Under the pieces are notes generated by a model. That model had not been told where the DNA came from. It searched no databases and worked only from the letters and a program-made list of their open reading frames with translations. From the NCBI RefSeq assembly GCF_011059105.1, contig NZ_JAALLS010000024.1, positions 1 through 64,000 of the forward strand: a stretch of 64,000 nucleotides of DNA, given 5' to 3'. Made by a program: the position numbers and the translations under genes. How positions within the stretch are numbered: the first letter of the stretch is position 1; each line of letters begins with the position of its first letter. The DNA is from Fodinibius halophilus (GTDB taxonomy: Bacteria; Bacteroidota; Rhodothermia; Balneolales; Balneolaceae). This document shows positions 2,717 through 22,834 of this stretch, in pieces.

Positions 2717-2730
2717 GGGGTGTACCGTTG

Positions 2731-3878: not shown

Positions 3879-3902
3879 TATTCTAAATATGGATCAACAT
3901 TG

Positions 3903-4046
3903 GTATAACGATCCTGTACGTAACCAGTGGGTGTATTTTTGTGAAAGTTGATTGCAGTTTACTATTTGGCACCCAGAAAAACAAAACAGGCAGGGAAGGG
4001 GAGTGCGTCCGCTTGAATGTACAGATTATAGGACGTTTTAAGTTTA
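3903..4046. repeat. Cassette-boundary repeat with GTTATAC core
   Basis: Read on the minus strand this ends with a core GTTATAC (3903-3909), directly before the lipoprotein gene. It includes the element TGCAGTTTACTATTTGGCA, which recurs at about 5130, 7150 and 9365. The block fits a cassette junction between the quinone-oxidoreductase-like gene and the lipoprotein unit. The folding potential of a canonical attC site is not obvious here, so the call depends on the family of repeats. Confidence 0.5.
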
Positions 4047-4063
4047 AAGGTATCAATAGCCTT

Positions 4064-5023: not shown

Positions 5024-5085
5024 TTTAACTTTTCCCTGGTTGAAGGATGAGAGTTTTTTTTGAGGAATGCAGTCTAAGCCCTGTA

Positions 5086-5425
5086 ACGACCTTGCCCTTA
5101 GCCGGCGCACGGTCTCTTGTGAATGCAATTGCAGTTTACTATTTGGCAGTAAGAAAACAAAACGGGCAGGTTCACCGACGCTAAAGGCCTACTACGCTCC
5201 CCGTCGCTGAAGCTATGGAGCGTAAGAGACCTAAGTAGAAGCTACGTAGGCTGTACTTTGGTGAACAGGGAATCCGAGCATAATCACCCAAACCGGTTGC
5301 CAGATTCTCCCCGCAGAGGGGAACAGGTTTGGACCAAGGATTTATTGGACAAATACGATCCCAAGGCAGGTGAGGACTAGTTTGCCCCGTTCTATGTTTT
5401 CCTTTGTGAAGGGGGTAGGTGTACA
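5086..5425. repeat. Long cassette-boundary repeat
   Basis: This about 340-bp block closely matches 11171-11417 over most of its length, sharing the GTCGCTGAAGCTATGG, GTAGGCTGTACTTTGGTGAA and AAACCGGTTGCCAGA segments. It also matches 9311-9552 in the CCAAGGATTTATTGGA region. On the minus strand it begins ACCTACCCCCTTCACAAAGG, equivalent to the starts at 11417 and 9552. Short frames inside it are not considered genes. Confidence 0.65.
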
Positions 5426-5496
5426 ATAAAGTTAGGAATTTAGTAGTTATGTGTATAGGTTAATAAAAAATACACATTGACTAAATCGGTACAATT

Positions 5497-5694
5497 ATGC
5501 GAACGAATGTAGTGATTGATGACGACTTGATGGATGAAGCCTTGAGGGTGAGTCAATTAAAAACGAAAAAAGATGCTGTGGAAGAAGGCTTGAAATTGTT
5601 AGTCCAGCGTAAAAAGCAAGAAAATATCAAAAACTTGCGCGGGAAATTGCACTGGAAAGGTGATTTAGAGGATATGAGGAATGACGAGAAGTGA
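5497..5694 (+). CDS. vapB: VapB-type antitoxin
   Basis: The 65-aa protein has the ribbon-helix-helix start MRTNVVIDDDLMDEAL and the KTKKDAVEEGLKLLV helix typical of the VapB family associated with PIN toxins. Its acidic C-terminus would wrap the toxin. It should bind operator DNA as a dimer and neutralise the PIN toxin encoded next, whose GTG start overlaps its TGA stop. This is the only plus-strand gene pair in the cassette-like region, so it carries its own promoter or was inserted in inverted orientation. Confidence 0.9.
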   Translation: MRTNVVIDDDLMDEALRVSQLKTKKDAVEEGLKLLVQRKKQENIKNLRGKLHWKGDLEDMRNDEK

Positions 5695-6086
5695 TTTTAG
5701 TAGATACCAGTGTATGGGTCGATTATTTCAATGGCGTAGAAAATAAGCAAACCGAAAATCTTGACCGGATCCTTTCTGAACAGTCAATCCTTGTGGGAGA
5801 TATTATTCTCACCGAAATTTTACAAGGTTTCGATAGTGACAAAGAGTTTAGATTAGCCAAACAAGCGCTTGATCCGCTAGATTGTGTTCATCTCGGAGGA
5901 AAACCGCTGGCTATAAAAGCAGCATCTAATTTTCGTTTTCTTCGGTCGAAAGGCGTAACTATTCGAAAAACTGTAGATATGCTCATCGGAAGTTGGTGCA
6001 TCGAACACGAAGTGGAGTTGCTACATAACGATAAAGACTTCAATCAGATAGCAACGCAGTTACCGCTGCGAATTTACCGAGACTGA
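5691..6086 (+). CDS. vapC: VapC-type PIN-domain ribonuclease toxin
   Basis: The 131-aa protein is a PIN domain. The first acidic residue is in MILVDTSVWVDYF (D5), with the conserved GDIILTEILQG glutamate at about 43 and acidic residues in TVDMLIGSWC and HNDKDFNQI completing the metal site. VapC toxins cleave tRNA or rRNA when released from VapB. The GTG start overlaps the stop of the antitoxin gene, the classic coupled layout. The stop codon TGA lies in the TGATAAC core of the following boundary repeat. All catalytic residues appear present, so it is probably active. Confidence 0.92.
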   Translation: MILVDTSVWVDYFNGVENKQTENLDRILSEQSILVGDIILTEILQGFDSDKEFRLAKQALDPLDCVHLGGKPLAIKAASNFRFLRSKGVTIRKTVDMLIGSWCIEHEVELLHNDKDFNQIATQLPLRIYRD

Positions 6087-6386
6087 TAACAACATTGTAC
6101 ATAAGTGCAGGCGCTTGAGTGTTGAAATTGTTTGCAAATGAAAGAGTAATTATAAGATGGAGGGGGGACAAGGCACCGCACCCGTGTGTACGCTGGATGC
6201 TGAAGCATCTCGCTAACCAAGAAGCTCCCTTAAGGAAGCTTAACGAATAGCAGGCGGTTTCAACCGCCCGGCATCAAGGCTGCCCAGAAGGCATGCAGTC
6301 CGAGCGTGATCCCCCAAACCGGTTGCCAGACCTGCCCCGTCCTACGGGGTCTGCTTGATAATTTCCGTTTTAAAGGGGGGGACAAA
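6084..6386. repeat. Cassette-boundary repeat with GTTATCA core
   Basis: The block begins with TGATAACAACATTGTACATAA, which on the minus strand ends in GTTATCA. It carries the variant-2 segment shared with 2731-2870 at about 6096-6170. It then carries the AAACCGGTTGCCAGACCTGC segment at about 6317 that is shared with the copies at 5.3, 9.4 and 11.3 kb. It separates two vapBC modules of opposite orientation. It has no gene. Confidence 0.55.
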
Positions 6387-6388
6387 AC

Positions 6389-6793
6389 TTACGATTCGAT
6401 TACTTTTTCTGGATGTTTGGTTAATGCTGGAAATTCCCGAAGAAGTTTTTTGTCCGTGGTAATCAATTCGAGATCCAGATCCTTGGCTAAGCTAACAAAT
6501 TCACAATCGTAGGATGAACAGGTCGATTGGCTGACATGCTGCAGAACTTGGACTGAATTCACCTGAAATTGTTGATCTTTCATTTGAAGTTCAGCCTTCT
6601 CCATAATCAGTAACGCTTCTGCTAAATCGATCAGCTCTTTTCGTAAATATAGCGTTACTACATTTCGAAATTCACTCCGCCAAAGAATAGGGGCGACCCA
6701 TTGTGGATCTTTTTGATAGAGCTGGTCACAAAGTTCTGTTGAATCTGATGGAAGCCAAAAGTGAGCAAGGATATTAGTATCAACAACGATCAT
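6389..6793 (-). CDS. vapC: PIN-domain ribonuclease toxin (second VapC)
   Basis: The 134-aa protein starts MIVVDTNILAHFW, giving the first catalytic aspartate of a PIN domain. Further acidic positions are seen in WRSEFRNVV and in SCSSYDCEFVSLAKDLDLELITTDKKL (split across about residues 90-117), where D and D of TTDKK complete the site. It is likely a tRNA or mRNA endonuclease held inactive by the protein encoded upstream. The start ATG overlaps the stop of that antitoxin by 4 bp. The sequence is not similar to the other VapC of this region beyond family motifs. Confidence 0.9.
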   Translation of the reverse strand: MIVVDTNILAHFWLPSDSTELCDQLYQKDPQWVAPILWRSEFRNVVTLYLRKELIDLAEALLIMEKAELQMKDQQFQVNSVQVLQHVSQSTCSSYDCEFVSLAKDLDLELITTDKKLLREFPALTKHPEKVIES

Positions 6794-7029
6794 GGACGAT
6801 CCTGATTAATGGCGGATTCAATTTCTTCGGAAGAAAGGCTCCCTTTTACTTTTTTACGTAATCGACGTGCTTCTTGCAAGATATCGTCAGTAGAAACCTG
6901 TTGAGGTTTGACGGTTTGTTCTAAACAGGCAATAATTTCACTGTTGATACTACGGTGATGAGCTTTGGCCTGCTTACGGACTCGATCGTAAATTTCTTCT
7001 GGAATGTTTTTTACGGTGATACTAGGCAT
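6790..7029 (-). CDS. Arc/FitA-type ribbon-helix-helix antitoxin
   Basis: The 79-aa protein begins MPSITVKNIPEEIYDRVR, a FitA/Arc-type ribbon-helix-helix DNA-binding start, followed by the HHRSINSEIIACLE helix. The C-terminal 35 residues are charged and probably inhibit the PIN toxin encoded 4 bp overlapping downstream. Such antitoxins repress their own operon. The pair is flanked by boundary repeats on both sides, so it appears to be a self-contained cassette. Confidence 0.9.
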   Translation of the reverse strand: MPSITVKNIPEEIYDRVRKQAKAHHRSINSEIIACLEQTVKPQQVSTDDILQEARRLRKKVKGSLSSEEIESAINQDRP

Positions 7030-7109
7030 AACAGATTAGTTTCGTTATGGTTTCTATATGAAACTAAAAAGGGAAGGGAATTATTGCAAGAAAAATGAAG
7101 GTACCTGTC

Positions 7110-7275
7110 GACTTGGGCATAAGGTGCGTACGGTCTCTTATGAATACAATTACAGTTTACTATTTGACAGCAAGAAAACAAAACGAGCATAGGCCTGCCC
7201 ACCGAAATCTTGGCGCAGGTGGGCCGAGGCACGCCGTGCCCCGGCTATCAAGGTCCGAGTTGAAGCGGCTGGTTT
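7110..7275. repeat. Cassette-boundary repeat
   Basis: This copy has GTGCGTACGGTCTCTTATGAA and ACAGTTTACTATTTGACA, matching the GCGCACGGTCTCTTGTGAA and CAGTTTACTATTTGGCA segments at about 5095-5150. It continues with a GC-rich inverted repeat built from GGCCTGCCCACC and GGTGGGCCGAGGC, then GGTCCGAGTTGAAGC, which also appears in variant form at about 2845. It lies between the serine hydrolase gene and a toxin-antitoxin pair. Confidence 0.5.
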
Positions 7276-7283
7276 ATACCAAT

Positions 7284-8810
7284 TCAATCAAGTGCTGGTA
7301 ATATATATTTCGGGATCATTTGATTCGGAGGAGTGCTTTTTCCATACAGTTCATATGAATTATAATTCCCTCCGGTAAAAACTGTGATCATATTGTAGTC
7401 AGGCCAAATATTTATTTTTTGACCTCCATTACCCGATGCCATGTAGGAATTGTATTGTTTGCCATCTATAACAACATATTTGTGTTCCCATAAGTAGCCA
7501 AATTCGGAAGTGTATTCTTCAAATGTTTTCCGTACCCAGTTTTCAGGAAGAACTTGCTTACCTTGCCATTTTCCACCATTCATATACATCGTTGCGAGCT
7601 TAACAAGGTCTCGCGGTTGAAGGTACATTTGACTAAACGTTTGTCGGCTTGTGGAATCAGGGTCAAACCGCCAGTCGTAGTTGGTGATATTCATAGGCTT
7701 AAAGAGATGTTTATCAGCAAACTCTTCCAGGGGTTTGTCCGTTGCAAGCTCAACAAGCCGTCCCAAGGTTAATGCTGCTCCCGTGCAATAAGATGATACT
7801 TCTCCGGGCTGATGAACTACTGGAAGATCGAGCGTGTATTTTACCCAGTCGGCACTTTCCATCATTTGCTGCTCATTTCCCTCACTTTCCGGATTGTTGT
7901 TTTCACAATCCAGGCCATGACGATAAGTTAAAAAGTCCTGAATGGTAATGCTTCTTTTTCGCTGGCTCATATGATCAAAGCTCTTGTATTTATCCTTAAA
8001 ATAAGGCAAGAGTTGATCCTGCTCGCTACCGATCGCAGCTGCTTCTATGGCCAAGCCTACAAGTGATCCGATGAATGCCTTTGTTGCTGAACGTAGTTGA
8101 TGTTGAGTGTTTATGTCATATCCATAAAAATATTCTTCAAGTACCAAGGTGTTGTCTTTATAAATCAATATACTGTGAACATCGGGATAGTTACCTTTAA
8201 TAGTTTGCTTAACCATTTCTTTGATACGTTCGGGGGTTTCAAAAGCATTATTGATATTCTCGACTTCTAAGCCATCGTTCGTTCTTTTGGGGATTTGATA
8301 GGTGTAGTCCTCAGGGTGATTAAACAACTCTTTACGAGGATACATCACCAATTTTTCAATATCGGTTGTAATCAGTTCAAACAACTGTCCATTAACCGTA
8401 TAGCCATTGATATTGCCCTGATCGTTTCTCTGAAAAATAACTGGCGTATCATCAATATTAGTGAAGCTATCATCTTTTACATGATACAACGGATATTTAG
8501 CCTTGTCTATAACCGCATATAGCGTAGTATCCATTGGCGATGCCATGATTTTTAATGTTGATCCAGAGACGTATTCATATTTGCCTTCGTATTCTAATAG
8601 CTGTTGATACGGTATAGATGGATCCATTGAATTGTGAGCTTGTACTAAGCTCATTCCACAATAGGGGCAGGTACCGTTCTCTTTAAAATGTTCATTAGTT
8701 TCATGGGCTTGGCAATTGCAAGGAGGGCAATAATATGTTGACGTCTCCTGACCTTTTGCTGAGAAATTAACGAAAAGGACTAATGATAGAACAAAAATTA
8801 TTTTTCCCAT
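7284..8810 (-). CDS. Exported serine hydrolase (beta-lactamase class C fold) with N-terminal heavy-metal-binding domain
   Basis: The 508-aa protein has a signal peptide (about 1-20) and then a short cysteine-rich domain with YYCPPCNC (Cys28/31/33) and CPYCGMSL (Cys48/51). This resembles the heavy-metal-binding domain found at the N-terminus of copper transporters. A middle region (about 60-170) is unassigned. From about 185 on it is a beta-lactamase/esterase-fold protein with the nucleophile motif SATK at 241-244. A YxT variant of the second motif occurs in SSYCTGAAL and a GNGG motif near 455 replaces the usual KTG. It probably hydrolyses a peptide or ester in the periplasm rather than a beta-lactam. 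Boundary repeats flank it, so it may be a cassette. Confidence 0.82.
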   Translation of the reverse strand: MGKIIFVLSLVLFVNFSAKGQETSTYYCPPCNCQAHETNEHFKENGTCPYCGMSLVQAHNSMDPSIPYQQLLEYEGKYEYVSGSTLKIMASPMDTTLYAVIDKAKYPLYHVKDDSFTNIDDTPVIFQRNDQGNINGYTVNGQLFELITTDIEKLVMYPRKELFNHPEDYTYQIPKRTNDGLEVENINNAFETPERIKEMVKQTIKGNYPDVHSILIYKDNTLVLEEYFYGYDINTQHQLRSATKAFIGSLVGLAIEAAAIGSEQDQLLPYFKDKYKSFDHMSQRKRSITIQDFLTYRHGLDCENNNPESEGNEQQMMESADWVKYTLDLPVVHQPGEVSSYCTGAALTLGRLVELATDKPLEEFADKHLFKPMNITNYDWRFDPDSTSRQTFSQMYLQPRDLVKLATMYMNGGKWQGKQVLPENWVRKTFEEYTSEFGYLWEHKYVVIDGKQYNSYMASGNGGQKINIWPDYNMITVFTGGNYNSYELYGKSTPPNQMIPKYILPALD

Positions 8811-8942
8811 GGAATTGTATTTGCAAGCATTAATAATATTGGTTTAGAAAGTAGAAAGGTCTCCTAGCTGATATACTCTTTTTAAAGTAAATAGTTACAA
8901 AGTTTTCTCGCTACTCGATCTGCGGTTTCCCCCCGTCGCATG

Positions 8943-9287
8943 TTAAACCAGGCAGTCGATCCAGTCGAGCGCCATGTGGATTAGCAGCCCAAGACCGATT
9001 AAGTGTAGTACACGAGCGGTGGGATGCCAATCCTGACCGTCAGCTTTCCGCCTCATAATGAGAGGAAGAATGAACAGAAAGGCGTAGATCACGATGGCGG
9101 GGATGGTGTGCAACGGATGAAAACCGATGGAGCACCGAATGGAATCGTAGATCGGGTCAGCCAGCAAGTGGTCTGCATCCACAAGCATTGTTGCAATCAT
9201 GATCACCGTCGCATTGCGCCAGCGGCTATGGAAGAACGTGAGTGCGACCAGCGGGGGCACTATAAAGTGCAGAGCGATATGAATCAT
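8943..9287 (-). CDS. DUF6122-like integral membrane protein
   Basis: The 114-aa protein has three or four hydrophobic segments and histidine/aspartate pairs inside the membrane region: MIHIALHFIVPP, MLVDADHLLADP, FHPLHTIP and HMALDWIDCL. This pattern resembles small membrane proteins of the DUF6122/YdjM-like type that conserve HxxxD-like residues. A metal-dependent hydrolase role has been suggested for relatives but cannot be shown here. The start codon is 25-30 nt from the ATTATAC core at 9311-9317, the distance typical for cassette genes. It is more GC-rich than neighbouring cassette genes. Confidence 0.7.
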   Translation of the reverse strand: MIHIALHFIVPPLVALTFFHSRWRNATVIMIATMLVDADHLLADPIYDSIRCSIGFHPLHTIPAIVIYAFLFILPLIMRRKADGQDWHPTARVLHLIGLGLLIHMALDWIDCLV

Positions 9288-9310
9288 GTCTGTAATGTAT
9301 TGTGGAGGCG

Positions 9311-9552
9311 GTATAATGACATTGCACTTAACCGGCGTATGGGTTGGTGTGAATGCGATTGCAGTTTACTATTTGGCACCTAGAAAAACAAACCGGTAGG
9401 TACCTGAATTTTGCCATCGAAACCGGTTTCCAGACCTGCCCCGAAGAGCGGGGTATAGGTTTGAACCAAGGATTTATTGGAGTAATACGATGCTAAGGTA
9501 GGTGAGTCCGCCAGCCGGCGGATTGACATTTTCCTTTTTGAAGGGGGTATAC
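9311..9552. repeat. 242-bp cassette-boundary repeat with matching ATTATAC / GTATAC ends
   Basis: On the minus strand this block begins GTATACCCCCTTCAAAAAGG and ends ATTATAC next to the DUF6122-like gene. The first core is complementary in type to the GTTATAC that opens the MNT/HEPN unit at 10312, as expected when a cassette's own attC follows its genes. About 95 bp in the centre are nearly identical to the copy at 11289-11373. It has no coding capacity. Confidence 0.6.
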
Positions 9553-9592
9553 AGCCAGACCGTAGTAGAAATAGTTAAAATTTGTTTAGGGA

Positions 9593-9926
9593 CTAATAAT
9601 CTTCGACCTTATCTAACAATTTTGGAACCCGATTTACGGCAAAATATCACATAGCAGCTTCGTCAATGATATCATAACCCATGAGCGATAATGTTCCTAA
9701 AGTCGATAATTTTTCGATATTCAGGAATTTTCTCGGCAAGCGTTGCTTCTTCAATTCGGGACAATCTGTGCAGTGCTTCGCCAATGATTTCGAACTCTCT
9801 TTCGATAGCACGCTGAAGCATGCGATCTTCCTGAAAATCTTTGAAGCTTTTGCCGCCAATAAAGTCTAAAATTTCCTGGCAGCAAAGGCTAATGTCAAGA
9901 AGCAGCTTTCTTGTTTTATGCGGCAT
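9593..9926 (-). pseudogene. HEPN-domain (DUF86) ribonuclease toxin, frameshifted and with a nonsense codon
   Basis: The frame starting MPHKTRKLLLDISLCCQEIL encodes a HEPN/DUF86 protein through FRNIIAHG, the RNxxxH catalytic motif of this family. Directly after it, at CATGGG, one extra G shifts the frame. The other frame then continues with YDIIDEAAM, a TGA where relatives have tryptophan, and YFAVNRVPKLLDKVEDY before the natural stop. Thus two lesions truncate the protein just after its catalytic motif. The partner antitoxin gene upstream is also frameshifted. Either the module is dead, or homopolymer errors explain the shifts; the TGA would remain even then. Confidence 0.8.
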
Positions 9927-10222
9927 ACAGAAGTTCTTTGGAGCGTTCAACTTCTTTCTGAAAAATTGAATTCCTAAACTTTTTCAGATGATACAAGTCA
10001 ACAGAACGCCCATAGATTTGCTCAAGTTCTTGCTTAAAATCAATGAATTGGTCAAACGCCCCCTTCAAATCCTTGACGATCAAATTTGACGATAAAATCA
10101 AGATCGCTGTCTTCAGAAAAATTATCAGTAGTGGCTGATCCAAAGAGATATAGCTCCTTCACATTATACTTTTTGTAAAGCTGTTGGAGCTGTTCAGTTT
10201 TAAGATCTATTTTTGTTGCCAT
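9916..10222 (-). pseudogene. MNT-family nucleotidyltransferase antitoxin, frameshifted in a G5 run
   Basis: The true start is ATG at 10220-10222 (MATKIDLKTEQLQQLYKKY). The protein shows the minimal nucleotidyltransferase motif GSATTDNFSEDSDLDFIV, that is GS followed by DxD. After FDRQGFEGG the frame breaks at a run of five G (plus strand C at 10059-10063). Removing one G restores GFEGAFDQFIDFKQELEQ and the rest to LLYAA. In intact modules MNT proteins modify or inhibit the HEPN toxin encoded next; the two genes overlap by about 10 bp here. The open reading frame beginning inside the second half is only a fragment of this gene. Confidence 0.8.
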
Positions 10223-10311
10223 AATTGTCGATTAATTACTTACTACAACAAACTTAACTAAAACTGATGCATTTTTCTATTGATCAAAAAAAATGAATTA
10301 AAGCATCGGTT

Positions 10312-10606
10312 GTATAACGACATTGCGCATAACCGACAGGTCCCGGAATGTCGAATTAATTTTAAAACGAAAGATTAACTAATAAATGGAAGGGGGTCAG
10401 TCTCAGATAAACGCCTGGACAAGATTCATCTCCTCTTACAAAAGCAATCTCGTACATCGGGGATGGGGAAATGGAAGTCAAAAGTAGTACGAAATTATCC
10501 AATAGCAGGTGTCCTAGCAACCGCTCAAATAAGACTAAAGGAGAAGTACGGAGTGAGTTGACCTTCTAATGCATAAACGCGTTGAAGTGCCTGGTTACGC
10601 CCACTG
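10312..10606. repeat. Cassette junction with GTTATAC core and non-coding filler
   Basis: The core GTATAAC at 10312-10318 (GTTATAC on the minus strand) is followed by GACATTGCGCATAACCG, which matches the arrangement at 9311 and 3903. Then comes a degenerate version of the variant-2 repeat. The next 200 bp carry no recognised gene. Near the toxin gene, at about 10578-10602, the minus strand reads GCGTAACCAGGCACTTCAAC, a candidate 5' arm of an attC that would be about 290 bp long. That pairing is weak. Confidence 0.4.
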
Positions 10607-10897
10607 CTACTTGGGATCTTCTGGTAATAAACGTGCTCCATGAATTACACTGAGTATTTCTATTGTATCTTCTTTTAGTAAATAGATAATGCGATAGGGA
10701 TGATGAAATACTTCTCGAATATCTTCTCGCTCATATTCTGGAACCTTGCGACCTTTTCGAGGGTGAGGTGGGAGATTTTCAGCTGCCTCAATTATTTGTC
10801 CTACTATGCGATAAGCATAAAGAGAAGAATCAGCAGCTATATACTCAAAAATTTGGTCAAGTTGTTTTTCGGCTTTCTCTGTCCAAATAATTCTCAT
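10607..10897 (-). CDS. RelE/ParE-family toxin
   Basis: The 96-aa protein matches the RelE/ParE fold pattern: MRIIWTEKAEKQLDQIFEYI at the start, a central PHPRKGRKVPEYEREDIREV, and YRIIYLLKEDTIEILSVIHGARLL at the end. Members poison gyrase (ParE) or cleave ribosome-bound mRNA (RelE); the sequence favours ParE-like proteins but does not settle this. The start overlaps the stop of the antitoxin gene by 4 bp. It is the terminal gene of a cassette-like unit. Confidence 0.9.
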   Translation of the reverse strand: MRIIWTEKAEKQLDQIFEYIAADSSLYAYRIVGQIIEAAENLPPHPRKGRKVPEYEREDIREVFHHPYRIIYLLKEDTIEILSVIHGARLLPEDPK

Positions 10898-11082
10898 TTA
10901 GCGGGCTGGTATTTCTTCTTGATGTCCTCGTGTGAAACAGTTCGGCCAGCCTTTGAATCTTCCAGTCCTTGCTCAATAGATTGACGTACATAAATTTTAT
11001 ACATCAAATCATCCCAATTGGCATCATCAGGAAGGTCGTCAAGCATATTTTCGATTTCTTTTTTTAATACTGCTTTTTCCAT
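10894..11082 (-). CDS. Antitoxin partner of the RelE/ParE toxin
   Basis: This 62-aa acidic protein (MEKAVLKKEIENMLDDLPDD) is mostly helical and lacks an obvious DNA-binding motif in the first 20 residues. It resembles the short putative addiction-module components found upstream of ParE-like toxins. It is encoded immediately before the toxin with a 4-bp overlap, the layout expected for toxin neutralisation. The call depends more on context than on sequence. Confidence 0.8.
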   Translation of the reverse strand: MEKAVLKKEIENMLDDLPDDANWDDLMYKIYVRQSIEQGLEDSKAGRTVSHEDIKKKYQPAK

Positions 11083-11170
11083 AACTGTAGGATTGAATTA
11101 AACTCTATCTGTAGTATCGTAACCATTACACAGAAAAACAACGATTAGCTGAATTGATAATTGCAAGCCT

Positions 11171-11417
11171 AGATAACGACCTTACGGCCCACTACGCGCC
11201 CCGTCGCTGAAGCTATGGTGCGTAAGAGACCGAAGTAGAAAGCTACGTAGGCTGTACTTTGGTGAACAGGTAATCTGTGCGTGATCACCGAAACCGGTTG
11301 CCAGACCTGCCCCGCAGAGCGGGGTATAGGTTTGAACCAAGGATTTATTGGAGTAATACGATGCTAAGGTAGGTGAGGACTAGCTGCTTGACATTTTCCT
11401 TTTTGAAGGGATTAGGT
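11171..11417. repeat. 247-bp cassette-boundary repeat with GTTATCT core
   Basis: On the minus strand the block begins ACCTAATCCCTTCAAAAAGG, directly after the DUF2971 gene, and ends in GTTATCT (11171-11177), 95 nt before the antitoxin gene. ACCTAAT is the near-complement of the GTTAGGT core that opens the DUF2971 unit, with one mismatch. It shares long segments with the copies at 5.1-5.4 kb and 9.3-9.5 kb. No gene is present. Confidence 0.6.
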
Positions 11418-11431
11418 AAACTTTATTTATT

Positions 11432-12274
11432 CTACCAAGTTCTATAAGGTATTTTGCTTTTATCTATCATTTGATGATTCGCAGTTGAATTAAAATGGCC
11501 TGATTTGAATAGTAAGCCCATTACAGAATGTTCAGCTAATTTCTTGTGTGGAGTTGGTCCAATATTAATTTTGTGAAAACTAAAATTATCATCTGAACTG
11601 GCTAATCTCATTTTATAGTATGGTATAATCATAGATTCTCCAGGTCTATAATCTACTTCTTCGTTATAATAGCTTACAGGTCTTGAAACAATTCTCCATT
11701 CTTTTTCTTCCCTGAAGGACGGATGTTTTAAAACTGGTGCTAATCTTATGAACTCAGATTTAAAATCATCCAAAAAATCCATCCAATCTGATATTTGATC
11801 ATTTTGATATTTCGTCAGAAAGTGGTTGATCAATTCATCAATCAGTAGGAATTGTTTTTCTTCTTCATATATACAAGGTACAATTTCTAAGTTATAACTG
11901 TTTAGCAACCATTCTAAATCTGAATGATTAAACCCAATATTGTAACCGCCAGAGTCTGGGCAATAGGCTCTCCATTGACTTAATAGATCTCCGTTTTCTG
12001 AGAATGATGCAGCAAATATGTTTATATGCTTTGAGCCATCAGCAGAATTTTTCAATCCATTAATAAATTTGTCGTCTATAGATCTGAATTCAGTACCCAA
12101 CCTCTTCTGTAGAAGGTAATAAGCATGCCTAAACTCTGTGGAATCATTTAGATATTGAATTTTAGATGCCCAAATTTCTTTGTTAAGAACAATTCCGATT
12201 AATCCTTTTTGAGATGTATAGTGATAAATTGGGGTTTTAGGGGTTTTATCAAAATGTTCAAAAATTTTTTCCAC
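11432..12274 (-). CDS. DUF2971 family protein
   Basis: The 280-aa protein begins MEKIFEHFDKTPKTPIYHYT and has features of the DUF2971 family: the start KTPIYHYTSQKGLIGI, then LNDSTEFRHAY, the central SFSENGDLLSQWRAYCPDSG and a later HPSFREEKEWRIVSRPV. The family is widespread in accessory regions and is sometimes found near defence genes; its biochemical role is not established to my knowledge. The ATG is about 27 nt from the GTTAGGT core of the upstream attC-like site, as for other integron cassettes. It occupies one cassette alone. Confidence 0.82.
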   Translation of the reverse strand: MEKIFEHFDKTPKTPIYHYTSQKGLIGIVLNKEIWASKIQYLNDSTEFRHAYYLLQKRLGTEFRSIDDKFINGLKNSADGSKHINIFAASFSENGDLLSQWRAYCPDSGGYNIGFNHSDLEWLLNSYNLEIVPCIYEEEKQFLLIDELINHFLTKYQNDQISDWMDFLDDFKSEFIRLAPVLKHPSFREEKEWRIVSRPVSYYNEEVDYRPGESMIIPYYKMRLASSDDNFSFHKINIGPTPHKKLAEHSVMGLLFKSGHFNSTANHQMIDKSKIPYRTW

Positions 12275-12294
12275 TTCGAATAGATTTTAAGTTT

Positions 12295-12420
12295 ACCTAA
12301 CGGCCCGGCAAATAAGCGGCGTGGTGATTAGTTATTCAATTTAAAACACAGAATTATAACAGCAATGGCAGAGAAAGTAACCTAAGTTTGTACCACGTCC
12401 GCTTAATTTGCTTGTTATGC
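12295..12420 (-). repeat. attC-like recombination site of an integron cassette
   Basis: Read on the minus strand the 126-bp site begins with GCATAAC (12414-12420) and ends with GTTAGGT (12295-12301), which fits the attC core GTTRRRY exactly. Between them two arms pair: AAGCAAATTAAGCGGACGTGGT near the first core, and ACCACGCCGCTTATTTGCC near the second. The first arm has an extra T and an extra A relative to the second. Such unpaired bases on one arm are the extrahelical bases that orient attC recombination. The opening core GCATAAC is the exact complement of GTTATGC at 16798-16804, which starts the preceding unit. This is the best-supported integron feature in the window. Confidence 0.75.
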
Positions 12421-12460
12421 ACAACACTGTGAAGATGTAAGTGAAACTATTTTAGATACA

Positions 12461-15400
12461 TTAATATATACCAAGTTCTCTTTCTTCATCCCTTTTGTTT
12501 TCCTGAACTATTGCTTTATCAAGCCAATCTATCCTGTCTTTTGACCATTTTCTCACTTCTGATATTTGGTGAGTTGTAAGCGATTCTAAAACATTCTTCT
12601 GAATTTTATAATAGCTGACAACGCTACCAGTCCAAGAAAATGAGCTGAAGTTTGATCCGATTTCAGCTAAAACTTTTTTGTTTGTTCCAAAGTTGTCTAT
12701 CAAATAGAGAGCCCAATCACTTAATGTAATTTTCTTGTTCTCTTCCTTATAAACAGGAATGATACTAGCTAAGAATATTGGCGCTGAATCAGGGTTCTTG
12801 TTGCACCATTCAATTAACTTCTCTTTTGGGATTTCCTCCTCAAGAATACTTTTCTCATTTTCCAATCCCTTACCTCTACCAAATCCAACAGCATCAATTC
12901 CAATAACTCTTCTAATGTTTAAATACTCTACACCCTCTACATTCAATAAGTAATCACTAAGTTTTGGCCAAATAACTTCATGATATCGATTTAATAAGAC
13001 TCTGAATACTTTAGTTAAATAATGGTCTAATGATAAATATGTATCCGTATCCGAACATATGTCAATTATAGTATTGTATACATAATCAGGAAATTCTTTA
13101 TTGATATTCTTATTAAGAAGCTTTGTTACCAATTCTGACCATGTATGACCATCGGCACCATCTATTCTGCTTTCTGATGGTTTGGGATTATAGGTTAGAA
13201 AGAAATTTAAAATAAAGTTCTGCAAGGATTGAAGTTTTTCTTCGTCATTAAATACTTGCATATATAGTATTTTCAATGCAAGCGATGATTCCTTCTCACC
13301 TAGGCTAGCAATTGAATTTAAGAACCACTTTAAGTCGCTCATACTTAACGACTCTAGTTTTCGCCCATAAGAAAATCTGTGCAAATCTTTTGTATCAATA
13401 TGATATTGCTCTATCGCATTTATCATCATTTTTAAATGTTCAGTCTTGACTTCATCTAGAGCACAAATAAAGAAAACAAGTAGATCTCTTGCATTTTTAT
13501 CATTAATGATTTTTTGAATAGAATAGGAAGCCTTTTTATTATTTTTAGCACTAATATATCCTGCTAAAAATAATGGATTAGGATTATCTACTTTTCCTAA
13601 TTTTTCTACACATACATCAATAAATTTTAGGTCAAAATTAACCAGTTCCCCAATCTTATTTCCAAACTGAAACCCATATCGTTGTTCTCCAGCTAAGAGG
13701 TCAGGTAAAAGCGATACGATCTCGATATTTTCCTCAATAATTTCTTTGCCAAGGTCTTTTACTCTTTCTAATGTCAAATCAACATAATTACCATCTTCTT
13801 CTTTTTCGTGATCGTGTACTGGTGTGCTTACGTAAAATTGGATTTTATCTTTAAAATCAGTTGGCTCAATAACCCTTATTAGACTATCAAGCTTACTCAA
13901 TTTATTTTCATTCAGTTCTTCCTGGTCATAGCGTTTAACATCTAATAGTGCCTGAAAAACATCTGTCCAAATATTATCCGATAAATTATTTAACTTTTTT
14001 ATTGTGTGGTACAACTTTTCTACAATCCTATCATTAACGTTAAATAACGATCTAGTATGAATTGCAACTTCACTTTTAACGATTTCAATAAAATCATTGT
14101 CTTCTTTTGATATTCTGACTAATAGATCTAAACAACTTTCCCAATATTCAAAGCTCTCTTCAATTTTTTCTTTGGTACCGGGATACCACTCTTGAGAGGT
14201 TCTATCAACAATTGGCCCAACTGACCTAACCTGCCCCGTAAAATTCCTTGTTTGTAAAGCTGCACCAAGGGAATTGATGACTAACTCAGTGTAACGTTTT
14301 GAGTTTTTTTCTAAAGCCTTTTCTAAAATACTTAATCTAGATAGTGGCGGAAGTTTTGTACCTGAGAGTGCAACTTTAAATATTTGTTTAAATACACCTT
14401 TAGCATTATTTGAATAAGGTTCATTTTCCGCAACAGCTAAATTCATGAGTAATTCAGCAGACTCAAAAAAAGATATCTCATAAAAAATCAAGTCACTTAA
14501 TGCCCAAACTAGATTTCTCCGTACATCGCCTTTGATTTCTTCATAATCAGCAATTTTTAAATTTGATAAAGCTCGATATAAAGATTTTGATGTTGCTTCA
14601 GGGTTCACATTTACTAATTCGCGAAAGAGCCGTGAACCCTGTACACTAGTCAGAACTTTCGCTTTTCCAAAAGGGGCATCATCCTCACATAATTCACTGA
14701 CTCTTTCTTTTGCTTTATCTACAAAATGAAGCTTTGAAAGTTGTCCACAAATTGATTCGCCCAAGCCATTTGTAGTAACTTCACTAATAATCTCTGTTAT
14801 TTTATCAGGTGGTGTTGATTCCCACCACTCTGCAGCCAAACTAATTGCCAAGGGCAAAGGACGGACTCGTATATAATCACCTCTTGTTTCTATAATTCCT
14901 CTTTTCCTAAACTTTTCACACTCTTCATAAAATAATTCATAAGTGATCCTATCACCGCATACATGATTTGCTACATATTTTGCTTGCTCAGATTTATCTT
15001 CAGTAAATCCAATATACTCGAAAATTGAACAGGCCCTCAAAACTTCATATTTGATTTGGTTTTCTGAGACCTCACGCCCATATATTAACCTTTCTTTAAT
15101 CATATCATCATTTAAAGTCCCAACCCGAATATCATCTGCAATTCTAGATTCAGCTATAAGAACTGCAATTTGAGGGAACCCTTGGGCAAATTTTGCAATT
15201 CTGTCAAGCTCAAAATCCCGAAGTGAGGTTTGAAATCTATTTTTGAGTATCTGCTTGACGATATCCTGTAGGTCAGATGGTTCGAGCTTAATAATATCAG
15301 CGTTTGAAATCTGATCAAACTCATAATCAATTGTTAATACTGATAACTTAGAATCCGGGGAATTGACAATTTGAGATATCTCTCTATGAATATGAGATGG

Positions 15401-16270
15401 GCATTCGTCTACTATGATGAAAGCGGCTTGTTTATTAATTAAGAGTTGATTAATAAAATCAATGATCTGTCCTTCTTTATCTTTTCTGCACTTTATATAG
15501 CAAGATATTGATCTAAATTGTTTGAGTTCATCTTCATCAGTTCCCAGATTTAAACACTCAATTGCAATGCGAGTTTTTCCTAAACCTGATAAACCTACTA
15601 ATCTTAGAATATTTTTTTGATTTCTAATAGTATCATGAATCTTGTTAATTATAAGGTTTGTCTTGGAATTCGATACAAATTCAGGTTGTCCATGAGTTAT
15701 GTCAGTAAATTGATTGAAAATTTTTAATCCAACAGGGCTAATAAGCTGATTGCATTTTAATACATATGATATCGCAGAAGGATAATTATTGACCCAATCT
15801 GAAATCTCAGAAGCATTCATTATTTCTATTTCTGGTGTTTTATCATAATTAGCAGAAACAGAATCCAAATCGTCAAAGAATGCTTCTTTTTGTTTACTTC
15901 TTTGGTGATCATGAGTACAAAAAAGTATGTAAGTACCACCATCTTTAAACAAAGTATCTACCTCTTCCACGACTTCATTTCCTTCTGTGTTAAGAATTTC
16001 TCCTCTGCATTTACTAGGAGGCATATTTGTAGCTTTACATTGAAATAGTACGTTGTTTGATGGTAAATAATCTGTGTGTTCACACTTACTTTTATCCCAT
16101 TTTATACTAACATCCTTTCCTCCATCTGAAGCTTTTATATTCAAAGAACCATTTGCACTTCCCAGCCTAATTCCAAACGAGATAGCCTCTGCACGAAGCA
16201 ATTTTTTACAAAGAATGGTTAATTGTTTTTCATCCAGTTTTTTGATGTGCTCATTATCAATTCTTAACAT
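12461..16270 (-). CDS. Nuclease-STAND NTPase, Avs-like antiphage sensor
   Basis: The 1269-aa protein has three parts. Residues about 1-170 look like a PD-(D/E)XK/Mrr-like nuclease: D49 and D53 in SDGGKDVSIKW and Q77-C-K79 in LFQCKA form the expected D...QxK site. Residues about 205-480 are a STAND-type P-loop NTPase with Walker A GLSGLGKT at 226-233 and Walker B AAFIIVDEC at 282-290. The remaining about 750 residues are predominantly helical repeats, as in the target-sensing part of Avs proteins. In that family, phage protein binding oligomerises the NTPase and unleashes the N-terminal nuclease. The gene shares a cassette-like unit with a gamma-glutamylcyclotransferase-like gene 34 bp upstream. 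The architecture is clear; assignment to a particular Avs class is not. Confidence 0.75.
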   Translation of the reverse strand: MLRIDNEHIKKLDEKQLTILCKKLLRAEAISFGIRLGSANGSLNIKASDGGKDVSIKWDKSKCEHTDYLPSNNVLFQCKATNMPPSKCRGEILNTEGNEVVEEVDTLFKDGGTYILFCTHDHQRSKQKEAFFDDLDSVSANYDKTPEIEIMNASEISDWVNNYPSAISYVLKCNQLISPVGLKIFNQFTDITHGQPEFVSNSKTNLIINKIHDTIRNQKNILRLVGLSGLGKTRIAIECLNLGTDEDELKQFRSISCYIKCRKDKEGQIIDFINQLLINKQAAFIIVDECPSHIHREISQIVNSPDSKLSVLTIDYEFDQISNADIIKLEPSDLQDIVKQILKNRFQTSLRDFELDRIAKFAQGFPQIAVLIAESRIADDIRVGTLNDDMIKERLIYGREVSENQIKYEVLRACSIFEYIGFTEDKSEQAKYVANHVCGDRITYELFYEECEKFRKRGIIETRGDYIRVRPLPLAISLAAEWWESTPPDKITEIISEVTTNGLGESICGQLSKLHFVDKAKERVSELCEDDAPFGKAKVLTSVQGSRLFRELVNVNPEATSKSLYRALSNLKIADYEEIKGDVRRNLVWALSDLIFYEISFFESAELLMNLAVAENEPYSNNAKGVFKQIFKVALSGTKLPPLSRLSILEKALEKNSKRYTELVINSLGAALQTRNFTGQVRSVGPIVDRTSQEWYPGTKEKIEESFEYWESCLDLLVRISKEDNDFIEIVKSEVAIHTRSLFNVNDRIVEKLYHTIKKLNNLSDNIWTDVFQALLDVKRYDQEELNENKLSKLDSLIRVIEPTDFKDKIQFYVSTPVHDHEKEEDGNYVDLTLERVKDLGKEIIEENIEIVSLLPDLLAGEQRYGFQFGNKIGELVNFDLKFIDVCVEKLGKVDNPNPLFLAGYISAKNNKKASYSIQKIINDKNARDLLVFFICALDEVKTEHLKMMINAIEQYHIDTKDLHRFSYGRKLESLSMSDLKWFLNSIASLGEKESSLALKILYMQVFNDEEKLQSLQNFILNFFLTYNPKPSESRIDGADGHTWSELVTKLLNKNINKEFPDYVYNTIIDICSDTDTYLSLDHYLTKVFRVLLNRYHEVIWPKLSDYLLNVEGVEYLNIRRVIGIDAVGFGRGKGLENEKSILEEEIPKEKLIEWCNKNPDSAPIFLASIIPVYKEENKKITLSDWALYLIDNFGTNKKVLAEIGSNFSSFSWTGSVVSYYKIQKNVLESLTTHQISEVRKWSKDRIDWLDKAIVQENKRDEERELGIY

Positions 16271-16304
16271 CTTGACGCCTTTTTATAAATTAATTAAGGT
16301 CTGC

Positions 16305-16778
16305 TTACACGCTATTTCTTCGTTCCTCATCTTGGTCTATAACAGAGCTTACTTTTTGAATTTTACCAATATAATCTTCTGGGAGAGAATGTTCTCTTGC
16401 ACCTTCTAGTACAAGAGTTTTGTACCAATGGTAGAGGGATAAAGAATTATCTGTATGAGATTTAGAGGCTATGTATGTAAAAGTATCAATTGGTTTTTCC
16501 CCGACATATACTGTAATCTCTTCCTCATTATATCCAAAACCGAGACCTTCTGCTCGGTCGAGACGATATTTCTCATTCTCATCAATTTCAAAAATAACGC
16601 CATGCACTACTGACCCTGCATTTGGAATTATACTGCATTTACCTGAACCATCTTTGCTTTTCTTATTAAATGTGAGTGAATAATCAGGAAGTAATGCATT
16701 ATTAAGTTTTGAAGCGGAAGGCACTCGTTTTTTTAACCGACTGGTTAGCAAGTTGGACCCATAGGCAAAGTATAACAT
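16305..16778 (-). CDS. Gamma-glutamylcyclotransferase-like protein
   Basis: The 157-aa protein begins MLYFAYGSNLLTSRL, with the YGSNL motif that shapes the substrate-binding loop in the GGCT-like fold. The catalytic acidic residue is expected in the region HGVIFEIDENEKYRLDRAEG (about 58-77), where the glutamate of DRAEG is the best candidate. Family members release 5-oxoproline from gamma-glutamyl amines or peptides. The ATG is 19-25 nt from the GTTATGC core at 16798-16804, so it is the first gene of its cassette, with the nuclease-STAND gene following 34 bp later. A functional link between the two is possible but not shown. Confidence 0.82.
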   Translation of the reverse strand: MLYFAYGSNLLTSRLKKRVPSASKLNNALLPDYSLTFNKKSKDGSGKCSIIPNAGSVVHGVIFEIDENEKYRLDRAEGLGFGYNEEEITVYVGEKPIDTFTYIASKSHTDNSLSLYHWYKTLVLEGAREHSLPEDYIGKIQKVSSVIDQDEERRNSV

Positions 16779-16797
16779 ATCTAAAATTGTTTATTGT

Positions 16798-16804
16798 GCA
16801 TAAC
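16798..16804 (-). other. Cassette core site GTTATGC at the array edge
   Basis: GTTATGC on the minus strand precedes the GGCT-like gene and matches, as an inverted copy, the GCATAAC that begins the attC-like site at 12414-12420. In an integrated cassette the 5' core and the cassette's own attC share this hexamer, so the pair marks one cassette of about 4.5 kb. No integrase gene lies beyond it; a CynX-like transporter of higher GC follows. Confidence 0.55.
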
Positions 16805-16892
16805 TATGATTATCGCAATCAGGTAATTGTATAACAATATTATTGTTCAGTGATATAAGTTGTATAAAAGGCTGCTAAGGGCAAAATAGAAT

Positions 16893-16930
16893 ATTATAGC
16901 GCATATTATGCTGCAGAAGTGTGCTATAAT
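16893..16930. terminator. Hairpin between the cassette region and the transporter gene
   Basis: ATTATAGCGCA (16893-16903) pairs with TGTGCTATAAT (16920-16930) with one mismatch, leaving a 16-nt loop. It lies just downstream of the minus-strand transporter gene's stop codon at 16959. There is no strong run of T after it, so a terminator role is only plausible. It may instead be a remnant of a recombination site at the edge of the array. Confidence 0.3.
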
Positions 16931-16958
16931 ATGTTGACATAACATTCTTGGCAGTAGC

Positions 16959-18155
16959 TTACTTCACCTCTTGCGGGCGGCCGGCGCCGAGGCCGAAGAT
17001 CAGCTTGGCAACCAGGATCACAAACAGGAAGAGCAGCGGCACAAACCAGGCGTGGGTGAGGTCGTGGAGGGCACCAAAAAGGGTCGGTCCCACAGCGGCC
17101 AGCAGGTAGCCGATAGACTGAGCCATCCCGGAAAGTTCGGTGGCGGTTTCGCTGTCGTGGGCACGCAGTACAATAAACAGCAGGGCCAGTCCAAAGCTGC
17201 CGCCCAGCGCCAGGCCGATGAGGGAGGCCCATAATCCAACTAAAAAGGCATTGGGCAGCATCAGTCCCACCAGGCTTACGGCTTCGCAGATCATCAGTAT
17301 CCAGACCAGTATGCGCTGGTCGCTGATCTTCTCAGCCCAGACGGGAATCAAGATGGTGCCTACCACGCCCATCCCTTGGGAGAGCGAGAGCATCCAGCCG
17401 GCAGTGCTGGCATCGAGGCCGCGGTCTTGCAGGATCTCGGGCAGCCACGCCAAAATCACATAAAAAGCCAGTGATTGCAGTCCCATAAACAGGGCTACCT
17501 GCCAGGCTATCTTAGAGCCGCCCAGGTCCTTCATCGCCTTTATAAAACTGCGGTCTTGGCTGGGCAGGGTCAGGTTTTTAAGCTGGGGCAGCCAGATCAC
17601 AAAAGCCAATATCGAAAGCGCTGCCCATCCCCCCAGCGACCATCGCCAGCCCAATCCCAAATCGTGGGCCAAGGGTACGCTAACGCCGGCAGCCAGGGTA
17701 GCGCCAAGGCCCAGCATGCTGGAATAAACGCTCGTCATAATGCCGGTGTGGTTGGGGAAGTCGCGCTTGACCAGGCTGGGCAGCAGCACGTTGCCAAAAG
17801 CGATGGCAATACCCAACAGCAGGGTTCCGCCGAAAAGGGCCAGGTTGCCGGGCACAACTCGCAGTAATATCCCGCCGGAAAGCAAGCCCATTGCTAGGGC
17901 CAGGGTACCCTCAATGCCCAACCTGCGCGTAAAAAGGGGCGTCAGCGTGGAGAGCACGCCAAAGGCGATCAGGGGCAGGGTGGTCAGTAATCCCAAAAGG
18001 GTATTGGAAAGGCCGGTGGCCTCACGAATGGTCCCGATCAAGGGGCCTACGCCAGCCAGGGCGGGACGCAGGTTTACGGCAATCAGAACAATGCCGGCAA
18101 TAAGCAGGATGTTTTTGGCAGTCGAATTTTGTTCAAAGGGTGATGAGGCGGCCAT
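16959..18155 (-). CDS. MFS transporter of the CynX/NimT type
   Basis: The 398-aa protein has about twelve hydrophobic helices and MFS signatures, including VNLRPALAGVGPLIGTIRE near residue 25, a family hallmark of CynX-like (cyanate/nitroimidazole-type) transporters, and TPLFTRRLGIEGTLALAMG in the loop between helices 2 and 3. It lies in the inner membrane and probably exports or imports a small anionic or heterocyclic compound, but the substrate is unknown. GC content rises clearly here compared with the cassette genes to its left, marking return to the core chromosome. It appears monocistronic. Confidence 0.85.
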   Translation of the reverse strand: MAASSPFEQNSTAKNILLIAGIVLIAVNLRPALAGVGPLIGTIREATGLSNTLLGLLTTLPLIAFGVLSTLTPLFTRRLGIEGTLALAMGLLSGGILLRVVPGNLALFGGTLLLGIAIAFGNVLLPSLVKRDFPNHTGIMTSVYSSMLGLGATLAAGVSVPLAHDLGLGWRWSLGGWAALSILAFVIWLPQLKNLTLPSQDRSFIKAMKDLGGSKIAWQVALFMGLQSLAFYVILAWLPEILQDRGLDASTAGWMLSLSQGMGVVGTILIPVWAEKISDQRILVWILMICEAVSLVGLMLPNAFLVGLWASLIGLALGGSFGLALLFIVLRAHDSETATELSGMAQSIGYLLAAVGPTLFGALHDLTHAWFVPLLFLFVILVAKLIFGLGAGRPQEVK

Positions 18156-20836: not shown

Positions 20837-22834
20837 TTTAGCCGTTGAAGGGCAATTCCACTTTTTTGTTGCAATTCCAGTCATCTCTACTAAACACACC
20901 CCGACCTTCCGGGCAACCGCCGGAAGCCCACCCCAGAGGGGATTTCGTAGTGCCTGTTATTTGGTTAAGTAGCCTTTTCGCTGAGGCTATCAGCCCTAAT
21001 ACTATCCGGTGAAATACCAAATTTCAGCAGTTTTCTAAATTATATTCCGTAATAGCCCCCTCCACGGGAGAGGTGCTCGGCCGGCAGGCGGAGCGGGGTG
21101 GGTTGCAATGGCTATCGTAAAACCACAGAGATTATCTTTTCTTAGGCAGCTATTAACAACAGGAGAGTCTCCATAAACCAACCGGCTGACCCCGCTGTGT
21201 TCCACTCCGCTCGCAGTCTCCCTTTATGAGCTAGCGTAGTAGCTAAAGGATAACCTTCTACACACTAATAAATCGTTTCAGGGAGATTGCCACGTCGTAC
21301 CGCTAACCCACGGCACTCCTCGCAATGACGAGCGTTGTTGTTTGAGTATTATGAGTATTAATAAAAGCAGTGTCATCCCGAGCGCAACGGAGTGAAGCCG
21401 AGGGATCTCCCTGAACAAGTTCGCGTAGTATCTAAAAAGATACTTTTCGATCTCGTTCGGATGCCTTGTTCAACGAAGCCTACCTGCGTTAGAAACTCCG
21501 GCAGATTAGCACTTTAGCATAGTTGAGCTCTGCGTCGGGACGAATTTGCCAGGAAGGGCAGGTTCATTTTTCAGTGACGATCCCCCGGTAGGCGCACCAG
21601 CAAAGCTGGAAACACCAAAAAAGGTACTGGGAGCATAGTATTGCCCCCCCCCCTGATTTTGAAATCGCCCATCTCTAAATGGTTTTCCCAAACGGCATTA
21701 GAATTGTGAACGAAGGTCAAAGTATGCGGGTGTGTATTTTGTACCGGTGATCTTCGGTGAAACGGTTTCTCCTTGTGAGAGGACCATCAAAATACGCGCA
21801 TACTGCAGACCGGAGTTGATCCACAATTCTTAGTCTTGATTTTTTACGAGCCTTTTGGATCAAGCCAAAAGGTGGAAAAAGATGGTAGCATTGATCTTGT
21901 ATGCTCCCGTTTTTTGATCGACCAAAAAACAGGATAAAAGTTACCGGCTGTGAATTCTGAACCCGGCTCCGAACATTCTGCGGGAGCATTTGATGGTCCT
22001 TTGAAACATCTGCTCGTTTAGAGGATGATACCATTTATCTGTTTATGAAGCACCAATCTCCAAAATTGAAAACCTTATAAAAGCAGTCATCCCGAGCGCA
22101 ACGGAGTGAAGCCGAGGGATCTCCCTGAACAAGTTCGCGTAGTATCTAAAGGGGGCATATATCATAGAGCTATTTTCGAGAACGGAACACCTCCCGACCA
22201 ATTCGAAACCCACGAATTGCCCACCCTCCTCGAGGAGGGATTCCTTTTCCGAGTTGTGTTGAAGGGCAAGAAAAAGTCCCCCTTCGGGCATTATCTGAAT
22301 GAAAGGCGTTGGGTGTAATCAGAAGGGGGTAAGGGGGATGATACCATTTATCTGTTTATAAAGCACCAATCTCCCCAATTGAAAACCTTATAAAAGCAGT
22401 ACCATCCCGAACGTAACGGAGTGAAGTCAAAGGATTCCTTGAATAGGTTTGCGAAGTGCACCGAAGTCATACCTACGCCAAGGGCTTCCCCCTAGCGTAG
22501 GTGTGCGTAGCATCTAAAAAGATACTTTTCGATCTCGTTCCGATGCTTTGCGTCGGAACGAATATATCCCGATACTGGTACAAGTTTGTCCGGGAAAGTT
22601 GATAGTATAGAACAGCAAATAGCCCATGAGTCATTTCGAACCGCCGAAAAGGGGGAGAGAAACTCATCCGTTTGTTGGGTAGCAGGACCAGAGAATTAAG
22701 TACTTTATTGAAAAGTGATATCCCCCCTTGGTTTTAAAAGCAGATCTCATCAGAACAAAAACAATTGAAATAGAGTCGCTGTTTGTTATTCCTTATTATA
22801 AGGCAACAGACCAGAAAAGAAACAGATCAATCAG
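20837..22834. other. 2-kb gene-free region dense in intergenic repeats
   Basis: No convincing gene was found on either strand; the short frames here run through repeats. The motif TCATCCCGAGCGCAACGGAG with GAGGGATCTCCCTGAACAAG occurs at about 21372-21420 and 22086-22133, with a diverged copy at about 22402-22450. A block including GATGATACCATTTATCTG and AAGCACCAATCTCC appears at about 22022-22090 and again at 22337-22400. The segment TCTAAAAAGATACTTTTCGA occurs at 21431-21450 and 22511-22530. Two GGNGG-like purine stretches and remnants of CCTTCCGGG hairpins fill the rest. Confidence 0.65.
21721..21999. other. Nested inverted repeats, possible structured RNA or element remnant
   Basis: AGTATGCG...GTATTTTG (21721-21741) pairs with CAAAATACGCGCATACT (21788-21804). 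GGACCATCAAA (21781-21791) pairs with the GATGGTCC block at 21988-21999. ATGCTCCCG (21901-21909) pairs with CGGGAGCAT (21981-21989). Two perfect hairpins sit inside: CCTTTTGG/CCAAAAGG with a 6-nt loop at 21851-21872, and GTTTTTTG/CAAAAAAC with a 6-nt loop at 21909-21930. The arms exclude one simple fold but are too many for chance. The role is unknown. Confidence 0.5.

Follow-up and report, generated by a model that had tools for sequence, protein, structure and literature searches.

A predicted nuclease-STAND receptor related to PD-lambda-4 A in a 4.5-kb integron cassette of Fodinibius halophilus

Introduction

PD-lambda-4 was found by experimental selection for phage defence or resistance (Vassallo et al., 2022; PMC9519451) and is listed as a P-loop NTPase system (PMC10952713). 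These papers describe its A protein just as a P-loop protein; its layout, in which a nuclease is joined to a STAND NTPase, is recognised in the present analysis. In Escherichia coli M19, the A protein (reference-like, 1283 amino acids, 2532 bits) is followed by the PD-Lambda-4_B gene (248 amino acids) in an island with an integrase at ssrA. Defence genes are also carried by integrons, where, in the account of Darracq et al. (2025) given in PMC12409362, they are streamlined, and large systems are absent, CRISPR-Cas and BREX among them. Here we examined a 64,000-nucleotide stretch of the Fodinibius halophilus genome (the window; contig C17:1-64000, NZ_JAALLS010000024.1, from a 4.19-Mb genome in 91 contigs), in which a full-length homologue of PD-lambda-4 A, called the sensor protein below, appears to be carried in an integron cassette.

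Results

The sensor gene is an open reading frame (ORF) at 12461-16270 that encodes 1269 amino acids from an ATG start with zero internal stops. The initial annotation, which had described the product as an Avs-like antiphage protein, left the strand unstated; the ORF is real and lies on the minus strand, as do its domains and all the cassette features given below (cassettes, attC sites, opening core and GGACT-like gene). The protein matched the PADLOC model PD-Lambda-4_A (PDLC03991) with an E value of 2.5e-83 over residues 2-1265 of 1269, and a full-length profile match of this strength indicates that chance is excluded. Pfam and NCBIfam gave nothing over their cut-offs for the protein. The A protein of E. 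coli was 24% identical to the sensor across 843 residues, with a further C-terminal piece aligned. All 18 homologues that we aligned also matched PD-Lambda-4_A, and 0 of the 18 matched an Avs-named PADLOC model, the library's cover of every Avs clade being unchecked. The description as Avs-like holds for layout and fold, as set out below, and does not appear to extend to membership of a named Avs family; judged by sequence, the protein is best named a PD-Lambda-4_A homologue with Avs/NLR-like architecture.

The 18-member alignment, drawn from genomes of the same phylum, Cyanobacteria, Alpha- and Gammaproteobacteria whose relatives are 21-31% identical to the sensor, revealed two sets of invariant columns. 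The columns E28, D49, G51, D53, Q77 and K79 fall in the N-terminal domain (residues 1-178; 15737-16270), and E28/D49/D53/Q77/K79 correspond to the PD-(D/E)XK nuclease pattern of the E/D/QxK type. G226, G229, G231, K232 and R234 of the P-loop were likewise invariant, together with D288 and C290 of Walker B (VDxC). The motifs read GLSGLGKTR (Walker A, with K232) and IIVDEC (Walker B, with D288), and the catalytic residues were invariant in a 24-member alignment as well. A D...QxK nuclease followed by a P-loop had been proposed from the letters alone, and Q77, K79 and K232 are all among the invariant positions.

An AlphaFold2 (AF2) model of residues 1-1200 (mean predicted local distance difference test score, pLDDT, 83.4; predicted template modelling score, pTM, 0.52) began with an alpha/beta domain at residues 1-178, followed by the NTPase core at about 202-330; next came a helical domain and, at 424-470, a winged helix that includes its hairpin, and nearly everything after that was helical. 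The STAND NTPase module (residues 187-470; 14861-15712) is placed by its invariant columns, NB-ARC profile hits and matches by Foldseek and VIA-align to Apaf-1, CED-4, NRC3 and ZAR1. The remainder (residues 472-1269; 12464-14857) is the putative sensor, predicted from the secondary structure of the model up to residue 1200 to be a long alpha-helical solenoid; the all-helical part makes up the C-terminal two thirds of the protein, in agreement with the helical sensor region first proposed. When the 1-1200 model was searched against the PDB with Foldseek, Avs4 (8dgf) ranked first (E 2e-7), and the other top matches included SAMD9, a STAND-TPR protein, Apaf-1, NLRP9, CED-4 and NRC3. The nuclease-STAND-repeat order expected of an Avs-type protein was therefore recovered by structure prediction. 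With VIA-align, the 50 rows shown for the full model were dominated by AAA+/ORC and clamp-loader proteins and Avs4 was not among the rows listed, which says nothing against the Foldseek match to Avs4. The family profile, compared with sequences of solved structures, gave plant NB-ARC proteins as the best matches (NRC1, E 0.0018; NRC3, NRC4 and ADR1 weaker).

The nuclease domain was also modelled alone (residues 1-205, pLDDT 84.4). The leading VIA-align rows were mostly PD-(D/E)XK enzymes, with MspJI at Z 8.7 and EcoT38I at Z 7.9, and AF1548, the BspD6I nickase and AspBHI also near the top; further matches were Avs4 (Z 6.2, residues 2-178 on 1-177), Cap4 (Z 5.5) and Avs3 (Z 4.5). Because these Z values are middling, the nuclease assignment relies on motif conservation combined with the fold. 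Taken together, the predicted nuclease, the STAND NTPase with winged helix and the alpha-solenoid form the architecture of Avs/NLR receptors.

The sensor family is patchily distributed, with members in 2 of 92 genomes of the host family and 12 of 394 in the phylum, and a single-protein scan of genome contigs with the sensor detected no relative. The 18-member alignment was too diverse to serve as a query; an alignment of five closer relatives yielded 33 loci. No sensor relative was found in phage records. Outside integrons the relatives are mostly 1250-1300 amino acids long, similar to the 1269 found here. In five genome relatives (from Nitrosomonas, Gallionella, Burkholderiales, Methylophilaceae and Massilia; L122 and L126-L129), the STAND module and solenoid were kept and the nuclease was gone, the alignment beginning at residue 179-198. 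These five instead carried a serine-hydrolase motif of the GHS(L/M)GG type (AHSLGG in two), and an alpha/beta-hydrolase domain exceeded the Pfam curated cut-off in all three nuclease-less relatives scanned (L122, L126 and L129) and in a relative on an Enterobacter plasmid (L104). Since an alpha/beta-hydrolase replaces the nuclease in some relatives, the NTPase-sensor core is combined with different effectors, an exchange like that of Avs/NLR receptors. A Haloarcula homologue (L094, 5983-9760) consists of two overlapping genes, one for an ATP-binding protein of about 346 amino acids and one of about 914, which suggests that the modules are separable.

The neighbours of the relatives include genes for a type III methyltransferase, a restriction helicase, a phosphorothioation-associated methyltransferase, Abi/PD-T4-5 and toxin-antitoxin proteins, and some relatives sit on plasmids or islands. 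The initial annotation had linked the protein to both defence and integron settings; the relatives bear out the former, and at the examined loci none had an integron integrase match, which makes the integron setting a special feature of this copy, atypical for the family. Among 5426 complete E. coli genomes, 173 contained DNA akin to an Enterobacter relative; in the E. coli search the DNA of the E. cancerogenus relative was matched, and that of the Enterobacter roggenkampii relative gave no match.

We then consider the unit that carries the gene. A search of the full 64 kb for inverted arms with R'' and R' boxes placed its best site at 12295-12420 (R'', GCATAAC, 12420-12414; R', GTTAGGT, 12301-12295), and the L'' arm of this site has two extra bases. 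Other contigs of the genome contain comparable sites. A covariance model of attC built from 12 aligned sites of this genome, including the window's site, detected 36 sites in this genome, and in the host family it found sites in 60 of the 92 genomes; it scored 12295-12420 at 101.2 bits. A leave-out model without the window's site and its nearest relative still gave 66.6 bits (E 5e-16), which indicates a true attC rather than a chance resemblance.

A free cassette begins with the complement of its own R'' box. The start of the sensor unit (GTTATGCACAA, with the opening core GTTATGCACAAT at 16793-16804, read from 16804 downwards) agreed with the complement of the extended R'' (GTTATGCACAAC) at 11 of 12 bases. 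With at most one mismatch, the expected 12-mer occurred in the 64 kb just at 16804 and in the R'' arm itself, so the boundary is not placed by chance. Of 10 other cassettes checked in this genome, 8 obeyed the same rule over stretches of 5 to 13 bases, and two, on contig C11, failed it. Since the start complements its own R'', the cassette runs from 16803 to 12301 (4503 bp), is the first of its array and contains both the sensor gene and a 157-amino-acid gene. An opening core, an attC site, a length of about 4.5 kb and two genes were all features of the unit as first described, and each was recovered. Its unusual size was borne out as well: in the 34-attC array of a congener (G009) the median spacing is 881 bp and the maximum 2892 bp, and the sensor cassette exceeds all of these spacings. 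The attC model, the complementary ends and the related loci indicate that the sensor unit is a bona fide integron cassette.

The second gene (16305-16778) encodes a GGACT/AIG2-like protein (Pfam PF13772, E 3.9e-11; PF06094, E 7.1e-11) and lies 34 bp upstream of the sensor gene on the same strand. We considered it as a conserved partner of the sensor and rejected this, since tblastn across the loci of sensor relatives found no GGACT homologue beside them at those tested; it is most likely either a passenger or an accessory found with this copy alone. The DUF2971 gene on the other side was likewise rejected as the second gene of the unit because the attC separates the two.

The array of about 16 kb (window 600-16960) is flanked by an MFS transporter gene (16959-18155), which lies just upstream and was present in 12 of 12 genus genomes, and by a thioredoxin gene (67-600). 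In the nearest congener (G014, 92% protein identity), the DNA ceases to be homologous to the window at 16800, inside the core, and homology resumes at the thioredoxin gene after 860 bp. Another congener (G017) has four attC sites at the equivalent place, and none was detected at the equivalent site in five other congeners examined. This comparison suggests that the array arose by the addition of cassettes at a single chromosomal site. The 860 bp of G014 contain one small ORF, the ends of which also follow the cassette rule.

The genome encodes an integron integrase on contig C37 (156-1094; TIGR02249, 432 bits, cut-off 265), and the G009 array ends at an integrase 62% identical to it. On C37, the complete integrase gene (144-1100; L013) is at the contig edge and is followed by a GIY-YIG-like gene and a second intI-like fragment (1479-1841). 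The flank TTGCGATAATCATA before the core GTT of the window array (16802-16818) and the intI-side sequence TTGGTATAATTACA of G009 (L147, about 16430-16446) agree at 13 of 17 bases with GTT, and it is possible that this flank is an attI-like site without its integrase. The conserved flank also has four promoter-like hexamers, ending 5 bp ahead of the core, against 1.0 expected. Being at the head of the array, the sensor cassette is well placed for expression, for which the hexamers are weak evidence.

The cassette has a G+C content of 0.333, compared with 0.425 in the 17-64 kb part of the window, and third-position G+C is 0.24-0.25 in the sensor, GGACT and DUF2971 genes, against 0.37-0.71 in 11 comparison genes. 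Owing to these low values, the composition of the three genes fits a foreign origin.

The next cassette (11411-12300) lies outside the sensor unit and comprises its own start, the DUF2971 gene (E 1.5e-14; protein coordinates 11432-12274) and its R''. Its start GTTAGGTAAACTTA and its own R'' AAAGTTTACCTAAT (11424-11411) are complementary at 12 of 14 bases. The DUF2971 protein matched PADLOC PDC-S31 (E 1e-6) and is a candidate for a second defence gene. Toxin-antitoxin-type genes of the array lie at 5691-6086, 6389-6793, 9672-9950 and 10607-10897 (two PIN-domain, HepT-like and ParE), and weak attC sites mark other array boundaries at 3903-4031, 5081-5197, 6084-6198 and 10312-10424; these sites are probably decayed. 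A family of repeats of about 100-250 bp, 74-96% alike and partly palindromic, occurs near cassette boundaries (5176-5420, 9415-9545 and 11177-11410) and on contig C2 (about 45-56 kb). We rejected the window repeats as attC sites, since the attC model sets the recombination sites elsewhere, and they look like separate elements. Further dispersed repeats of about 46-65 bp (GTCATCCCGAGCGCAACGGAGTGAAGCCGAGGGAT) are intergenic at 21361-22550. In several genomes of the family, attC sites of this type are spread over many contigs or lie at several places far apart, and cassettes seem to disperse beyond one array.

Discussion

We consider it probable that the unit is a genuine integron cassette and that its main gene encodes an NLR-like anti-phage receptor acting by solenoid sensing, oligomerisation and DNA cleavage. 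The likely function would be abortive phage defence, on a mechanism suggested by the architecture and by published work on Avs as presented in PMC12931631. The C-terminal helical solenoid would most likely bind a phage protein, upon which the STAND module would be released, bind ATP and oligomerise. The clustered PD-(D/E)XK domains would then be activated to cleave DNA and stop phage production, and the cell would probably pay for this. We infer each of these steps (the phage trigger, oligomerisation, nuclease activity, expression and protection) by analogy.

Several observations weigh against this interpretation. The array has no integrase beside it; the integrase is on another contig, and the contig of the array starts at window position 1, before the thioredoxin gene. 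Since most of the other attC-like sites in the window score weakly, the array may have decayed in part. No PD-Lambda-4_B partner was detected, as the neighbouring proteins (P0002 and P0003) had no match to PD-Lambda-4_B in PADLOC and tblastn of the E. coli B protein over the window was empty, although a very divergent B is possible. Phmmer, profile search and PDB sequences gave zero sequence-level match between the sensor and a solved Avs protein. Finally, Foldseek alone gave zero significant match for the nuclease-only model, and the last 69 residues (1201-1269) lie outside the structural model.

The missing integrase, with the TIGR02249 gene at the edge of a different contig, and the single strong attC among weak ones also suit the idea of an intact gene carried as a silent passenger, unexpressed in a partly decayed array and giving no present protection. 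The review PMC12409362 presents chromosomal integron cassettes away from the promoter as mostly presumed to be little expressed. The sensor cassette, however, is first in its array, directly after the conserved flank with its (weak) promoter-like hexamers, and the 1269-residue frame is intact with its catalytic residues kept; silence of the gene is thus a possibility that we regard as doubtful. Another proposal is that the GGACT-like protein and the sensor form one module, the former modifying or restraining the sensor or a phage signal. The two genes share cassette and strand, and the 34 bp between them is too small a space for an attC. A joint module is nevertheless unlikely, given that no GGACT homologue adjoins any tested sensor relative and that GGACT relatives in the family sit away from the sensor, with no attC near the six loci tested.

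A non-defence role, in cell death or transcription regulation as for many bacterial NB-ARC proteins, would be compatible with the NTPase and solenoid, which on their own are common to non-immune STAND proteins. We judge such a role quite unlikely in view of the whole-length homology to a protein selected for phage defence, the conserved nuclease, the swapping of effectors, the patchy distribution and the restriction, Abi and toxin-antitoxin genes beside the relatives. A chance likeness to attC, with the gene being ordinary cargo of the chromosome or of an island, might be argued from the relatives on plasmids and islands, which have no integron integrase nearby. This has been largely refuted by the score of the leave-out model, the end complementarity common to other cassettes of the genome, the end of G014 homology at the core and the different cassettes of G017 at the equivalent site, and we regard it as very improbable.

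Returning to the sensor as a cassette-borne anti-phage receptor, we propose, tentatively and at somewhat less than an even chance, that a full-size NLR-like nuclease receptor moves as a complete cassette and is kept at an expressed first position, at a conserved site away from the integrase. If this is true, the host's family does not obey the reported size limit on integron-borne defence, and STAND receptors can be shuffled whole by integrons. The novelty is that a full-length sensor is carried whole in an integron cassette; the kind of protein is itself already known. Further, the results place PD-lambda-4 A in a widespread NLR-like family whose effector is exchanged while the NTPase and sensor are retained. 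An orphan system is thereby linked to the Avs/NLR mechanism, which hints at the form that a trigger assay could take.

Among known systems, PD-lambda-4 A is like the sensor in its nuclease motif, P-loop, helical C-terminus, similar length (1283 and 1269 amino acids) and carriage on mobile DNA. The present copy differs in having no detectable B gene in the window, in its integron cassette with a GGACT gene, in its distant host and in the identity of just 24%. Avs4 and Avs3 (AVAST; 8dgf and 8dgc) have the same order of N-terminal PD-(D/E)XK nuclease, central STAND NTPase and C-terminal repeat sensor, and Avs proteins likewise place interchangeable N-terminal effectors, here a nuclease or an alpha/beta-hydrolase, on a common NTPase-sensor core. 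The sensor protein is shorter than their solved chains (1269 against 1541 and 2028 residues) and, as noted, shares no sequence-level match with them. With the eukaryotic NLR/NB-ARC proteins (NRC, ZAR1, Apaf-1 and CED-4) it has the NBD-HD-WHD fold in common; its predicted effector is a nuclease rather than a coiled-coil, TIR or CARD domain, and its sensor a helical solenoid rather than LRR or WD40 repeats. The integron defence cassettes of Darracq et al. (2025) and Kieffer et al. (2025), as far as they are described in PMC12409362 and PMC13064858, resemble this unit in carrying an anti-phage gene as an attC-bounded cassette in a chromosomal integron lineage. The genes described there are streamlined, whereas here the protein has its full length of 1269 amino acids and the cassette is about 5 times the median spacing of the congener's array. 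A 4.5-kb cassette that has precise ends and holds a complete receptor would be a concrete, testable exception to the size-reduced defence genes of integrons.

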